From Opitutales bacterium (lineage in GTDB: Bacteria > Verrucomicrobiota > Verrucomicrobiia > Opitutales > Oceanipulchritudinaceae), in the NCBI GenBank assembly GCA_007134215.1, contig SLLG01000058.1, positions 1 through 53,629 on the forward strand: a stretch of 53,629 bases of DNA. Direction: 5' to 3'. A model generated the notes under the pieces. That model saw nothing but the letters and a program-made list of their open reading frames with translations, searched no databases and was not told the DNA's origin. A program made the position numbers and the translations under genes. Positions 6,203-12,320 of this stretch are shown here, piece after piece. Positions within the stretch are counted from its first letter, which is position 1. Every line of letters starts with the position of its first letter.

Positions 6203-6871
6203 ATGGAGACAGAATCAGACAGGCCAGCCGGTTTCTTGATCGTAGAGGACCATTTTATGTTCCGTGAAGTCGTCGCGACCATTGTGCGCGACCGTATCGG
6301 CGCGGAGATTATCGGGGCGGAGGAATCCGGCGAACAGGCGCTGCAAATCTTCGAAGCGGAGCGCGGGCGGATCGATGTCGTGCTCCTCGACCTCGACCTG
6401 CCGGACATGGACGGGATGCAACTCGCCGAAAAGATGGTCGCGCTCGATCCGAAGAAGCGGATCCTCGCGGTGTCGTCGCAGTGTGACGACTACACCTTTT
6501 ACCGTGTTCTGCGCTCCGGGCTTTTCGGTTTCGTGGACAAGACCAAGCAGGGCCTTGAAGAGCTGGAGCACGCCATCCGGGAAGTCCTTGAGTGGCGCCC
6601 CTTTTACGCGGCCTCAGTGCACCAGGCAAACCTGAGCCAGTTGGCCGACCCCAAGGCTTTCGCGAAAATCCTCACGCAGCGCGAGCAAGAGCTGCTCCGC
6701 TATTTCGGTGTGGGCATGCGCAACGAGGAAATCGCCAAGGAGTTCGACCTCTCCGCCCAGACCGTGCAGGGGCACAGGCGCAATATCATGCAGAAGCTGA
6801 GTGTTTCCAGCACGCCGGAATTGATCCGCTACGCGCTCAAGCACGGATTCTCCCGCGTGAGCTGGATGTAG
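6203..6871 (+). CDS. LuxR/NarL-family response regulator
   Basis: This 222-residue cytoplasmic transcription regulator has an N-terminal receiver domain: IVEDH at 13-17, phospho-acceptor Asp63 in VLLDLDLPDMDG, and Lys113 in FVDKTKQ. Its C-terminal GerE-type helix-turn-helix spans about residues 157-199 and contains LTQREQELL and AQTVQGHRRNIMQKL. TTGAGGT lies just upstream of the ATG. It is 101 bases downstream of the degenerate NtrC-like pair on the same strand and convergent with the hybrid kinase, separated by 33 bases. A partnership with that kinase is plausible from position but not shown. Confidence 0.93.
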   Translation: METESDRPAGFLIVEDHFMFREVVATIVRDRIGAEIIGAEESGEQALQIFEAERGRIDVVLLDLDLPDMDGMQLAEKMVALDPKKRILAVSSQCDDYTFYRVLRSGLFGFVDKTKQGLEELEHAIREVLEWRPFYAASVHQANLSQLADPKAFAKILTQREQELLRYFGVGMRNEEIAKEFDLSAQTVQGHRRNIMQKLSVSSTPELIRYALKHGFSRVSWM

Positions 6872-6904: not shown

Positions 6905-9900
6905 TCAGCCCGCCGTGGCGTTGAACTCGGCCTCGAGGGCGTCGCGGAGTTCTTTTTCGGCGCGGTCGTAGGCGAAGATCATCTCCCGCGCGGTATCGAG
7001 GTTTCCGTTGCGCGCCTGGGTGTGTATCTGCCGGGTAACATCCATGATCCCGTGGGCGCTGAGGATGGCAAAGTGGGAGAGCAGGCGGTGCGCGCTTTTG
7101 CGCACGCCCTCGCTGTCGTCTTTTTCCAAATACGCGCGGAGTTGACCGGATTCCTCGCCCAGGGCCGCGAGGTAGCGCGCGACGTGCTCGCGCAGGCGGT
7201 TGGGGTCGCCGCGCGAAATCATCTGCAGCCCCGAAAGGTCGAATTGCATGGGCGGCGGCGCGACGGCCTGCGCCGTCTCCGCGACGGGCGCGGGAACAGT
7301 GCGCAGGGCGTCGCGCAGCTTCGCCTCCGTGACCGGCTTGGCGAGAAAGCCGAACATCCCCGCCGCACGGCACTCGGCGAACTTCTCACGTGTGGAGTAA
7401 GCGGTCGTCGCGAAGATGCGCGCGGGTTTGCGCGGCTTGGTGGAGAGGTAGCGCTGTGTGACATCGACACCGCTCATGTCGGGCAGTTCCCAATCGAGGA
7501 AGACGAAGTCGAACTCGCGCTCGCGCAGCTTTGCGAGCGCGCCGCCGCCGTCTTCCGCGCCGTCGACGAGCATGCCGAGCTTTTCGAGCATCCCCGCCAT
7601 GACGAGGCGGTTGTAGTCCATGTCGTCGACGACGAGGGCGGCGCAGCCGGCGAAGTCGCGCAGCTCGCGCGTTTCCGGTTCTTCGAGGGAGGCTTCCTCG
7701 TCGACGAAGAGCGAGACGACAAAGGAAAAGGTCGCCCCGCCGAACTCATTGGCGGTCACGCTGATTTCGGCGCCCATGCGGTCGGCAAACTGTTTGCACA
7801 CGGCAAGCCCCAGCCCCGTGCCGCGGATCGTGCTCGTGCGGGCGTCGCGCGTGCGGTAAAATTTCTCGAAGAGGCGCGCGCGGTCCGGTTCCGGGATGCC
7901 GGGCCCCATGTCGGCGACGTGGAAGGCCACGCGGGCCCGGTCGCTGACGAGGGTTTCTAGCTCCACGCGCAGTGTGATCTCGCCGGGCACGGCGTATTTG
8001 ATGGCGTTGCCGAGGAAGTTGATGAGGATCTGGCGGATTTTGGAGGAATCGCCGAGAAGCACGAGGTCATGGACCGCGCCGAACTGCTTGGAAATTGGTT
8101 TGCCCACCCGCTCGGCTTCCCACTGGCTCACGGAATACGCTTCGTCGATGAGGCCGGAGAGGCGGAAGGGGCGGTTGTCGAGGTCGATCTGGCCGGCCTC
8201 GATCTTGGAAAAGTCGAGGACATCGCCGATCATCTGGTTGAGGTGCAGCGCGCAGGCGCGCAGCGAGTTGACCATCTCCTGCTGTTCGTCGCGCAGCGGG
8301 CTGAGTGTAAGCAATTCGCTGATACCGACGACGCCGTTCATTGGGTTGCGCAGTTCGTGGCTCATGTTGGCGATGAACTCGCTCTTCGCCGCGTTGGCCA
8401 TTTCCAGCTGGCCCGTGCGCACCTTCACGAGGTGTTCGAGCTGCTGCGTGCGGATGCGGTTCATACGCGAGCGCCACCAGTAAAACGCCCAGAACGCCCC
8501 GCCGATCAGAAAGATATACGATGTGTAGGCGTAGGCGGAGCGGTACCACGGCGGGAGTATGCGGAAGGCGTACGATGCGGCGGCGCCGCGCTCTCCGTCC
8601 GGGGCGAGCAGCCGCGCCTGAAAGGTGTAGTTGCCTTCGCGCAGGCCCGCCAGTTCCCACCCGGGCCGGTCAATGGGCTCGCGCCAGTTGTCGTCGAGGC
8701 CGTCGATGCGGATCTCGTAGCGGTAGGGCATGGGCGGCGATACCCGCGGGTATCCGAATTCAAAAGCAAGGTTGCCCTCCCGGTAGGCGAAACGCCTCGG
8801 GCGGTCCTCGTCGGGAGCGCTCAGAAGGTTTCTACCCTCGTGCACGACGCGTCGGAGAAGGACCGGCGGGGGCGGTCCGGCCGGTTCGAGCGTGTCGGTG
8901 TAGGTCATGAGCAGGCCGCCGGTTCCGCCGATCCACAGGCGGGTGATCCCGTCGTAGATGTCGACGGCGAGCTGCCGCACTAAGCCGACACTATCGAGTC
9001 CCGCGACGGCAAGCGGTGTCACCGTCCAGCCGTCCTCCGCACGTTCCCGCGGATCGAGACGCGCGAGCGTGTGCGCCCTGCCGAGCGGACCGCGCGTCTG
9101 CCCAAGGGCGGCGATAAACGACCCGTCGCGGCCCAGTGCGCTGACCGCCTGTACCTGTGTGCCGGGCGGAAGGCTCAGCGGCTGGAAGCGCCGCGCCCGC
9201 GGATCGAGCCACTTCGCCGCCGTCCCTTCGATGACAAGAATACGGTCGCCGGAGATGACGAGTTCGCGTGCGTCGCCCTGCATGGAAAGGCCGTTGCGCT
9301 CGTCGTAGACTTCGAGGAAACGCGCGGAGTGGAAGTCTCCGGAGAGTTCGAGGCGGATGAGACCGCTGCGGATCGTCCGTACCCAAATTTCCGCGCCGAA
9401 GAGGTGGAACTCCGTCAGGGGCGTCGGAGCGCGGAAAAGGTGATGGGTCTCCAGCACCTTGCCTTCGCGGATGCGGACCGCGTTCAGATCGGTCCGCGTC
9501 GAGTAGACAAACCACTCCGGATGGCCCGTCGGGCGGATGCGGGGCACGTCGTCGTAGTCGGTCACAAGCCGGGTTTCCACGCCCTCGTGATCCATCATGA
9601 AGACCCCGCTGAATCCACTGTAGACAAGCGATGTTCCCGAAAAGGTGGCGCTGAAGGCGTAACGGGAGAGGGGTGTGGACGTGAAGCGCAGGGCGTCACC
9701 TTCCGTGTGCCCCGTGTAGATCCTTCCGTCGGCGACGACAACCGGCGCTCCGTCGCGGAACACGAAGTCACCCGCCGCCGAAAATCCCTCGGGCACCCGA
9801 TGCTGGTAGGTCCACAGCCTTCCCGGTTGCCGCACCACCGCGATTCGACCCTCGCCGGCAAGCCAGAGGTCGCCGTGGCTGTCATGAAGAAACGCGGTCA

Positions 9901-10801
9901 GCGTGCGCATGGGGCGTTCCAGATCCAGGCGACTGACCTGATCGCCATTTTTATTATAGAACAGTAGACCGTGTTCTAAAGTAGGTACGACTGTTAATCC
10001 GCCGACATGGGACACTGTGCCCAGCGGTCGGGCGTCTGTCTTACCGATCAAATCATCCCGGCGGGTGGCTATCAGTCTGTCGCCGTCTAAACGGAAAACT
10101 CCTTTGTCGGTGTAGAAGTGCAGGATTTCTTCATGCTTGGACATCCACAAAATCAGAATGTCTTCCAGTTGCTCCGAGATTCGTTGTTTTGTGAGGGTAC
10201 CGTCTGTGAAGATCCAAACGCTGCCTATCGTGAACAGATACAAGGAATCATCTATCTCTTGTGAAAATAACCGTCGGCCGACATCTTCCACACTCCATGT
10301 CTCAGCGGCGAAACCATCCCATGTGATGAGACGGTCACTCGCAACAAAGGCGATCAGGTTGCCGACTTCATAGATATTCCAGATCTGGTTGAACTGGCTC
10401 GATTCCTCAGGCAATCGCTCGACTAGCGAAACAAACGATATGCTGCCGTCGGACTTGGTCTCCAAGTAACCAAAGTCGTCCAAACTCCCGACCCATACAC
10501 GGTCATTCGCATCGACAAATAGGGCGGTGATGATCTGCAAATCCAGGGAGTGCGATATCCACCCCGTCCCGTCGTAGATCTTGAGGGTGCTCCCTCCCGC
10601 GTAAATCCGGCCATGCGAGTCTTCAGCTAACGCAAAAAGAAATCCGGAGACGTCCGCCTCGGTCGTATCAAAATGTTCAATATAAGGCCTTCCGCTCAGG
10701 TAGTCCGTAAATACTTCCCGGTATGCTGCCTCCAATATAGGTATAAGTGCCCAAAATGTAAAAATCGTACCTGCGAGGCGGTATGTTGCCGCCCCAAACA
10801 T
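6905..10801 (-). CDS. Hybrid two-component sensor kinase: periplasmic propeller, Y_Y_Y, HisKA, HATPase, receiver, Hpt
   Basis: The 1298-residue protein has an N-terminal hydrophobic segment, then propeller repeats of the two-component-regulator type (for example [33 protein letters not shown]). An immunoglobulin-like Y_Y_Y domain lies near residues 640-735 and one transmembrane helix near 757-776. The cytoplasmic part has HisKA with [11 protein letters not shown] (His near 814), an HATPase with [17 protein letters not shown] and GTGLGLAV, a receiver with [20 protein letters not shown] and AKPV, and an Hpt domain with [11 protein letters not shown] (His near 1236). It therefore carries a whole phosphorelay except the final output. 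It lacks the AraC domain common in Bacteroides versions. Start codons further upstream (10876, 10990) would overlap the divergent peptide gene, so ATG at 10801 was chosen. GC content drops sharply in the N-terminal part (about 9,950-10,800). Confidence 0.94.
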
Positions 10802-10853: not shown

Positions 10854-11168
10854 ATGAATAAAAAACTGAGAATCATTGCTTTGGGATCTATTTCAAGCCT
10901 CTTTCTTGCCTGCGGTCTTACGCAAGCGGCGGAACGCATGGATGAAAAGATCGGAACGTCGTCGGCGATCACGGGTGAGGGTGTCAACACGTCTTCAACA
11001 GGTTGCGCCCAATTGCCGTGCTACCACCGGGATTTTAATTCTACGCGGTCCGGGTCCTCAACGGGTTGCGCACAACTTCCGTGCTATCATCGCGACTTCA
11101 ACTCGACCCGTTCGGGTTCTTCGACAGGCTGTGCTCAGCTTCCCTGCTATCATCGGGATTTTAACTGA
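10854..11168 (+). CDS. Small exported-type peptide with three identical Cys/Ser/Thr-rich repeats; candidate multi-core RiPP precursor
   Basis: The 104-residue product starts [20 protein letters not shown]. This is a basic N-region and hydrophobic core like a Sec signal peptide, with a possible cleavage site near residues 25-26. A short acidic/basic linker follows (residues 27-46). Residues 47-104 are three head-to-tail copies of a 21-residue unit that begins [16 protein letters not shown] and continues STRSG. The last copy ends at Asn104, after 16 residues of the unit. Each copy has two Cys, several Ser/Thr, and the metal-capable His and Asp. The start lies 52 bases from the divergent sensor kinase, and a YcaO gene follows after two hairpins. 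I infer that the repeats are cores matured by the YcaO. No family is recognised. A repetitive secreted adhesin or metal-binding peptide is the alternative. Confidence 0.8.
10992..11165 (+). repeat. Three tandem coding repeats, 63 + 63 + 48 bp
   Basis: Units lie at 10992-11054, 11055-11117 and 11118-11165. At DNA level, units 1 and 2 differ at 16 of 63 positions. Units 1 and 3, and units 2 and 3, each differ at 11 of 48. Every one of these changes is synonymous, and the peptide repeats are identical. The duplication is therefore old enough for silent sites to diverge while the amino-acid sequence was held fixed. Confidence 0.95.
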
Positions 11169-11233: not shown

Positions 11234-11271
11234 AACCCGCCCGCATGGGATCATGCGGGGCGGGTTTTTTG
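11234..11271 (+). terminator. Rho-independent terminator between the peptide gene and the YcaO gene
   Basis: The arm AACCCGCC-CGCATG pairs with CATGCG-(G)-GGCGGGTT around a GGAT loop, followed directly by a run of six T. This is the strongest intrinsic terminator in the window. It implies that most transcripts stop after the peptide gene, with YcaO made from read-through or its own promoter. That is a common arrangement for abundant precursor peptides. Confidence 0.9.
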
Positions 11272-11297: not shown

Positions 11298-12320
11298 ATG
11301 GAACACTCGATGATCCTGCCCGGACACTCACCGGCGACAATGTGGGTCGATCCGCCCCGCCGCAGTGTCGGCGCCTACTGGCGCCGGTGGGCGCGGCCGG
11401 TCCGGTCCGTGCTCGCCTCGGTCAATCTCAGCCCCTTGCGCTACGCGCGCATCGGGGTGGCCGACGGCGGACCGGTGGCGTCGATTGACATCTGGCCGAT
11501 GCCGGGCGGAGACCGGCCGCTTTTCGGGGCGAGTGTGTGGCTCGACCCGTCGCTTCTTCCGCCTCCGGTAGAGAACAGTATATACAGCAATGCGGACGGC
11601 TACGGGATGGACGCTTCGCGGATGGTGGCGCGGTTCAAGGCGATTTCAGAGGCACTGGAGCGCTGGGCCTTACGGGTGAAGGGGGAGGACTCCGACCGGG
11701 ATCACTACGGCTTCGATATCGATCCCACATCGAACGGCATGTCGGCCTTTCCCGGACTGGTTTCGTGGCGTGCACGGGACCGCGCGGAGCTGGAGGCGCT
11801 GGAGCGGTTTGTGCTTTTCTCGTGGTGGGAGGGCCGTCTCGACTGCGCCGAGCGCGCGAGTCCGTGGGAAGGTGTGCGGCTGCTGGAACTGGAACACGGG
11901 CTGGGACGGTTCTCGGTGGCCGTCGTCCACCGCACCTTGCCGGAGAGCGGGCTGCGGCTCTACGGGCACGGGGCGGGGGCCACCCTCGCCGAGGCGGCGG
12001 CCGGGGCCTACGACGAAATGCTCAGCCACGGCACGGCCGTGGCGACATACGAGCACCGCGGCGGCTTCACACAGGAGAAGATCGGTGCCTTGGAAAACAC
12101 CTTCGAGCGGCGGGCCATGTTTTTCGCCACGAAAGCCGGGCAGCGGCTCTTCGACGAGCGCGTGGGCGCCGGACGCTGGGCTGCCGTGAAGCGTCCGAAA
12201 GTTGTCTTCAACGGCATCGTTCCCGGCGAGTGGAACCGTTACGCCCACGTTTGGCGGGTCACTTTCGAGCCTGTCTCCACGCAGTACCTCAACCCGAGGG
12301 TCAATTACTTTTTCTGGTGA
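11298..12320 (+). CDS. Stand-alone YcaO-domain protein, candidate peptide-backbone-modifying enzyme
   Basis: The 340-residue product shows three blocks expected of YcaO proteins. The first is SNADGYGMDASRM (97-109) leading into FKAISEALERWAL (113-125), the glycine-rich loop and ExxER helix that bind ATP/Mg. The second is RAELEALERFVLFSWWEG (162-179). The third is GHGAGATLAEAAAGAYDEML (223-242). YcaO enzymes use ATP to activate peptide amide bonds, giving azolines, thioamides or amidines. The C-terminus ends RVNYFFW and lacks the PxPxP tail of many azoline cyclodehydratases. No E1-like/ThiF partner, TfuA, dehydrogenase or dedicated transporter is encoded nearby. A frame-compatible ATG at 11253 lies inside the terminator hairpin, so ATG 11298 was chosen. 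Immediately upstream is the repeat peptide, its likely substrate. The family call is by motif only. Confidence 0.85.
   Translation: MEHSMILPGHSPATMWVDPPRRSVGAYWRRWARPVRSVLASVNLSPLRYARIGVADGGPVASIDIWPMPGGDRPLFGASVWLDPSLLPPPVENSIYSNADGYGMDASRMVARFKAISEALERWALRVKGEDSDRDHYGFDIDPTSNGMSAFPGLVSWRARDRAELEALERFVLFSWWEGRLDCAERASPWEGVRLLELEHGLGRFSVAVVHRTLPESGLRLYGHGAGATLAEAAAGAYDEMLSHGTAVATYEHRGGFTQEKIGALENTFERRAMFFATKAGQRLFDERVGAGRWAAVKRPKVVFNGIVPGEWNRYAHVWRVTFEPVSTQYLNPRVNYFFW

Follow-up and report, generated by a model that had tools for sequence, protein, structure and literature searches.

In the agr and ComQXP systems, a hypervariable secreted peptide is encoded together with its processing enzyme and a membrane sensor kinase whose sensor evolves rapidly. 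Fungal alpha-factor precursors are secreted prepro-proteins with several near-identical pheromone copies and short linkers, and stand-alone YcaO enzymes participate in antibiotic making, bottromycin being an example. Sec leaders have been described as rare among bacterial RiPPs and as demonstrated experimentally only for bufferins (PMC12452194).

Here we analyse a locus of an Opitutales bacterium (GCA_007134215.1, contig SLLG01000058.1, positions 1–53,629, forward strand; this whole stretch of 53,629 nucleotides is called the window below), in which a short precursor ORF sits between a divergent hybrid sensor kinase gene and a stand-alone YcaO gene. The reading that we favour, and consider fairly probable, is that the locus specifies a YcaO-modified, Sec-exported multi-core RiPP peptide signal that is read by the neighbouring propeller-sensor kinase.

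The precursor and its repeat units

The precursor ORF (10854–11168, plus strand) encodes 104 aa with three 16-residue units, and its orthologue in a sister species is 84% identical. Residues 1–25 (10854–10928, plus strand) form a Sec-signal-like leader with a basic N-terminus, a hydrophobic stretch and the sequence TQA↓AE as a possible signal peptidase site; these features, including the A-x-A-like site, were judged by eye on the alignment, and export of the precursor by Sec appears probable. The repeat region, on the same strand, comprises core unit 1 (10992–11039), linker 1 (STRSG, 11040–11054), core unit 2 (11055–11102), linker 2 (STRSG, 11103–11117) and core unit 3 (11118–11165), which is immediately followed by the stop codon. 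Each linker, ASRSG at both places in the sister species, contains one basic residue, and the window core contains two Cys and one His. Finally, the gap between the precursor and the YcaO gene holds an intrinsic-terminator-like hairpin (11240–11259, plus strand), in which an 8-bp stem is followed by GCGGG and a T run (dG −25.3 kcal/mol, z −3.2). Such a hairpin would cause the precursor to be made in excess over the YcaO enzyme, as befits a substrate.

The preliminary description had reported that the units differ at many silent sites and at no residue, and a recount confirms both its figures and its coordinates. With the linker included, 16 of 63 bases distinguish unit 1 from unit 2; over the 48 bases of the core all three pairs (1–2, 1–3 and 2–3) differ at 11. 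All differences are synonymous, falling at third positions apart from one first-position change between the Leu codons TTG and CTT. Fifteen of the 16 codons vary among the window units, the second Cys (TGC) being the sole invariant one, and the 16 variable sites are all silent (P about 9e-11 if changes were random with respect to the code). Within the array pS is saturated, at 0.85–0.93, with a pN of 0–0.03 whose upper value is a path artefact of the Leu codon. Selection for silent divergence per se was considered and is weakly supported: summed over pairs, 31 codons differ, compared with an expectation of 23 for saturated sites given local codon usage (P 0.02), and under even codon usage there is no excess (P 0.58). 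The third-position G+C of the repeats (10992–11165) is 0.53, compared with 0.80 in the neighbouring genes, a difference that might hinder recombination between units.

The sister species (genome G002, an Opitutales bin; record JAFIGH010000131.1, locus L044) has a precursor of the same three-unit build, with 12 silent sites and one non-silent site, the last residue changing from N to K. At the site where the window units carry Thr, all three sister units carry Leu, encoded by CTC, CTG and CTT. These three distinct Leu codons, together with the divergent silent sites, indicate that the sister array is not a homogenised copy; gene conversion among the sister cores is thus unsupported, the silent sites between units still being highly divergent. 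Since pS within the window and sister arrays is high to saturated (0.67–0.93), at a between-species dS of 0.62 for the YcaO gene, the unit duplications probably predate the separation of the two species and were followed by parallel change. The two sister linkers (L044 8279–8293 and 8342–8356), unlike the sister cores, differ at only 1 of 15 bases; the window linkers differ at 5 of 15. Silent-only divergence, combined with a unit-wide residue switch between species, points to a multi-core precursor in which every copy has to specify the same product; its multi-core nature we regard as nearly certain.

The precursor belongs to a larger family. A short ORF of 39–104 aa lies just upstream of the YcaO gene in all 41 loci of the first set. 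Among 35 aligned precursors the leader is conserved (G21 invariant, A26 in at least 90%; family consensus MK...LG..SSLLLaaGf.rAAe.lDp) and the C-terminus is hypervariable; the window leader is homologous. Most members have a single hypervariable core at the C-terminus, usually with Cys. A Cys after residue 28 is present in 58 of the 63 precursors that were inspected, and the last core Cys lies 2–15 residues from the C-terminus; of 115 core Cys, 45 directly follow a Pro, the background being 9%. Core Cys is absent from L077, L079 (the least convincing precursor assignment), L080, L082 and L139. Peptides of 39–40 aa with weaker leaders occur at L077, L078, L080, L081 and L082, where they end in PTEV, PCEV, PTEV, PCEV and GTEIN, respectively. 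The swap between PCEV and PTEV at one site, within one sub-clade, fits a YcaO enzyme that uses Cys or Thr. At L132 and L133 two differing leader-bearing precursor genes stand in tandem ahead of one YcaO gene, the second being without core Cys.

Tandem cores of other sequences, two to five per precursor, are found at five loci apart from the window and the sister: four copies of AFCDTVCNF (L071), three of AFTETVCNF (L120), five of KSSAFSELPCQF (L119), two of RPAPDCMSLCAIA (L152) and two of ACTAACH[F/Y]S (L161). Judged from the sequences alone, they suggest several independent multi-core origins. When units were compared within these relatives, as the preliminary description had proposed, the five arrays proved nearly all silent, like the sister array; pooled over all seven arrays, silent variable sites number 64 and non-silent ones 2. 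In none of them do the units vary freely, and none contains copies of identical DNA. The constraint on the protein that had been postulated for every copy is therefore found again in the sister and in five arrays of different core sequence. That each copy yields the same mature product, also anticipated there, is the best reading: single-core relatives end in one equivalent core, and an array would release its copies as mature products. For instance, L121, from the genus of L119, ends in the single core CEFTELPCQF, which matches the L119 repeat and thereby identifies the repeat unit with the core. The L119 and L120 arrays belong to two cassettes of the same genome, G795. The kinases of these two cassettes have identical HisKA stretches and sensor segments that are 30–60% identical; possibly, the cassettes represent two parallel signal types.

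The YcaO-fold enzyme, the sensor kinase and the cassette

The gene downstream of the precursor (11298–12320, plus strand) encodes a stand-alone protein of 340 aa which, on the evidence of the Pfam family and of an AlphaFold2 model, is an enzyme of the YcaO fold. Pfam YcaO matches were obtained for 38 of 39 family members with E values up to 0.1 (best E 1.1e-9); the window protein alone reaches E 0.0013 and 18.6 bits, below the curated cut-off of 25.7. The model (pLDDT 87.5) gives Z 17.4 to McbD and about 16 to other YcaO structures (16.4 to the M. kandleri YcaO), and all 17 best Foldseek matches are YcaO proteins. A sequence-profile search of the PDB gave no match, and NCBIfam gave only a sub-threshold match to SagD. 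In the family alignment S117, E118, E121 and E169 are invariant and E166 is present in at least 90%; the Glu residues among them may correspond to the ATP/Mg-binding Glu motifs of YcaO enzymes. The stretch with E166 and E169 aligns with SNGMSA...SEVFERY of E. coli YcaO, with an hhalign probability of only 19% (E 0.0012). With its conserved leader and variable core beside such an enzyme, the ORF has the layout of a RiPP precursor, and the precursor is very probably the substrate of this YcaO protein.

On the other side of the precursor lies a divergent gene (6905–10801, minus strand) for a hybrid sensor histidine kinase, comprising an extracytoplasmic Reg_prop/Y_Y_Y propeller sensor, HisKA, HATPase, receiver and Hpt domains; the ORF is open to 10990, with a presumed start at 10801. 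Its 3′ end adjoins the gene of a LuxR-type response regulator (6203–6871, plus strand). The modelled sensor matches the BT4663 periplasmic domain (E 7e-29), the nearest solved sensor, which recognises heparin/heparan sulphate.

Cassettes of kinase, leader peptide and YcaO were found at about 100 Opitutales loci; neither the cassette nor the joint residue switch between species figures in the preliminary description. Relatives of the YcaO protein are present in 40 of 372 sampled Opitutales genomes and, within a single family, in 87 of 252; in a sample of the phylum the YcaO profile matched Opitutales genomes only. In 95 of the 96 loci with enough sequence the sensor kinase is divergent upstream, namely in 40 of 40 in the first set (L056, at a contig end, left out) and in 55 of 56 in the second (L174 is the exception; four contig ends left out). 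A LuxR-type regulator adjoins the kinase in 73 of 82 judgeable loci and is missing from that place in 9, 19 contigs being too short to judge. Only this cluster of kinase and regulator recurs in most neighbourhoods. No transporter, E1-like partner or dehydrogenase was conspicuously conserved near the cassette, and the same holds for genes of export, immunity or resistance; nor was a dedicated protease seen. The plasmids searched gave no YcaO match, and PADLOC returned no match for the peptide or the YcaO protein and only weak ones for the regulator. At L045 and L066 an in-frame stop lies within the YcaO match, which may reflect a disrupted gene or an assembly error.

These genomes encode many propeller-type sensor kinases. 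In a sensor-profile search the cassette kinase ranked first in the YcaO-positive relatives that passed the threshold, most of which had contributed to the profile; L051 (G029), outside the profile, still scored E 2e-150, and the L054/L058 sub-clade fell below the threshold. In the YcaO-negative congener G001 only a paralogue was found. The flanks of seven related non-cassette kinases, when scanned, proved to contain no leader peptide of the cassette type, L183 having almost no upstream sequence. Evolutionary distances are correlated between kinase and YcaO (r 0.91) and between sensor and YcaO (0.84), which shared species history alone could explain.

Between the window and its sister the kinase core is 95–100% identical, whereas sensor residues 161–360 are only 48–57% identical. 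The corresponding window segment (9911–10510) has a saturated pS of 0.71–0.74 against the sister, compared with about 0.35 in the kinase half. This suggests fast change or re-diversification of the segment, or its import. Over 18 close pairs the mean identity is 0.52–0.71 for the sensor and 0.84–0.92 for the kinase; however, a non-cassette paralogue behaves alike, so that fast sensor change is not specific proof. Moreover, in the close pair L168/L172 the sensors remain 0.80–0.90 identical although the cores differ strongly. Taken together, the paralogue and this pair leave a joint change of peptide and sensor suggestive only.

A proposed peptide signal and its rivals

We propose the following sequence of events. 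The peptide would be translated with its Sec-signal-like leader; the stand-alone YcaO enzyme, using ATP, would alter the core backbone, most likely at Cys (often Pro-Cys); Sec would export the precursor; and proteases would cleave at the linkers, freeing three copies of one peptide about 16 residues long. The released peptide would then bind the large propeller sensor of the divergent hybrid kinase, which would signal to the adjacent LuxR-type regulator. Since all copies would have to suit one enzyme and one receptor, their residues would stay fixed while silent sites drift until saturated, and any change of the peptide would appear in all copies together. Coding, constraint on each unit, the existence of several multi-core arrays and the conservation of the cassette are evident from the sequences, as are the YcaO and sensor folds from the models; from these we infer the site and chemistry of the modification, export by Sec, cleavage at the linkers and the role of the peptide as kinase ligand, in quorum-type or self-sensing fashion. 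That the peptide is a signal read by the kinase seems to us, on balance, probable.

Could the arrays instead be a neutral expansion of a short exported protein, with meaningless codon differences? Tandem repeats can arise by slippage, and copy number does differ between genera. Nevertheless, silent-only divergence at saturation, at 64 to 2 over seven arrays and with P about 9e-11 for the window by itself, makes this explanation barely credible, and it contradicts recent slippage or a non-coding repeat, from neither of which, according to the preliminary description, such a pattern would be expected. Alternatively, the product might be a multi-core, YcaO-modified antimicrobial acting on competitors, the kinase controlling production or sensing a cue and the repeats raising the dose. 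The family's hypervariable cores would fit this, a regulator beside a bacteriocin operon is common, and the part taken by stand-alone YcaO enzymes in antibiotic making speaks in the same direction. An antimicrobial is nonetheless unlikely, given that no exporter, immunity or resistance gene is conspicuously conserved beside the cassette and that one specific extracytoplasmic sensor family, nearly always divergent, goes beyond the needs of general regulation.

The kinase might also sense an unrelated ligand, e.g., a polysaccharide, and the peptide be part of the output with another role. The likeness of the sensor fold to the glycan-sensing BT4663 and the abundance of propeller-type kinases in these genomes agree with such a ligand, which alone leaves unexplained why this sensor family is divergent from the peptide and YcaO genes in 95 of 96 loci and, its paralogue apart, is missing from the YcaO-negative G001; we hold it to be rather improbable. 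A secreted, bufferin-like peptide whose core Cys and His bind copper or another metal, with a kinase that senses metal stress, is more doubtful still. The experimentally known Sec-leader RiPPs are copper-binding bufferins (PMC12452194), and the two Cys and one His of the window core might serve as ligands; but neither the core sequence nor the number of Cys nor the His is conserved, core Cys is missing from some members, metal binding has no need for cores that are hypervariable and yet the same throughout an array, and the enzyme is a YcaO protein and not an MNIO (DUF692). A secreted signal is the best explanation both for sensor, peptide and enzyme staying together and for the identity of the copies.

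Comparison with known systems

The literature searched, which covered few subscription journals, contains no prior description of this system: no paper treats YcaO together with Opitutaceae or with hybrid two-component systems, and none found under YcaO and Verrucomicrobia, YcaO and pheromones or Opitutales and RiPPs describes it. We give about even chances to the wider proposal of a previously undescribed cell–cell signalling system of Opitutales, in which YcaO-modified, Sec-exported pheromones, encoded as a single copy or as two to five identical ones in each precursor, are sensed by a divergent propeller-type hybrid histidine kinase, with G795 carrying two such cassettes for different peptides. 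If true, it would add peptide signalling to a phylum for which the literature searched describes none, combine a Sec leader, a multi-core precursor and a sensor kinase partner, each uncommon in bacterial RiPPs, and give propeller-type hybrid kinases a class of peptide ligands. About a hundred natural peptide/receptor pairs would become available for work on joint change in signal and receptor. The Cys/Thr exchange of the L077–L082 group is a natural experiment on which residue YcaO modifies, and the silent-site pattern provides a means to recognise multi-core precursors from sequence alone.

We liken the locus to agr, ComQXP, bottromycin and alpha-factor by way of analogy, without implying membership. 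As in YcaO RiPPs of the bottromycin type, a short precursor gene lies beside a YcaO-fold enzyme with no obvious E1-like partner, and a core Cys (or Thr) is available for backbone modification. Unlike them, the precursor has a Sec-signal-like leader, a sensor kinase takes the place of exporter and tailoring genes, the precursors are hypervariable and repeatedly multi-core, and the window YcaO protein is divergent enough to miss the Pfam cut-off. A leader of probable Sec type would be shared with bufferins and other MNIO RiPPs, which differ in their enzyme and in having a fixed metal-binding motif where the present family has hypervariable cores. The repeat-plus-linker layout recalls fungal alpha-factor, by analogy and not homology, in a bacterial and YcaO-linked setting. 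With the Bacteroides HTCS, among them the best structural match BT4663, the kinase shares the propeller plus Y_Y_Y sensor and the hybrid architecture; the HTCS ligands known are glycans, in contrast to the peptide that we propose, and the present kinase has a separate LuxR-type regulator encoded next to it. Finally, the union of variable peptide, enzyme and a sensor kinase with a fast-changing sensor in one locus resembles agr and ComQXP, from which the present locus differs in the class of its enzyme, its Gram-negative host, its Sec-signal-like leader, its propeller sensor and the proposed status of its signal role.
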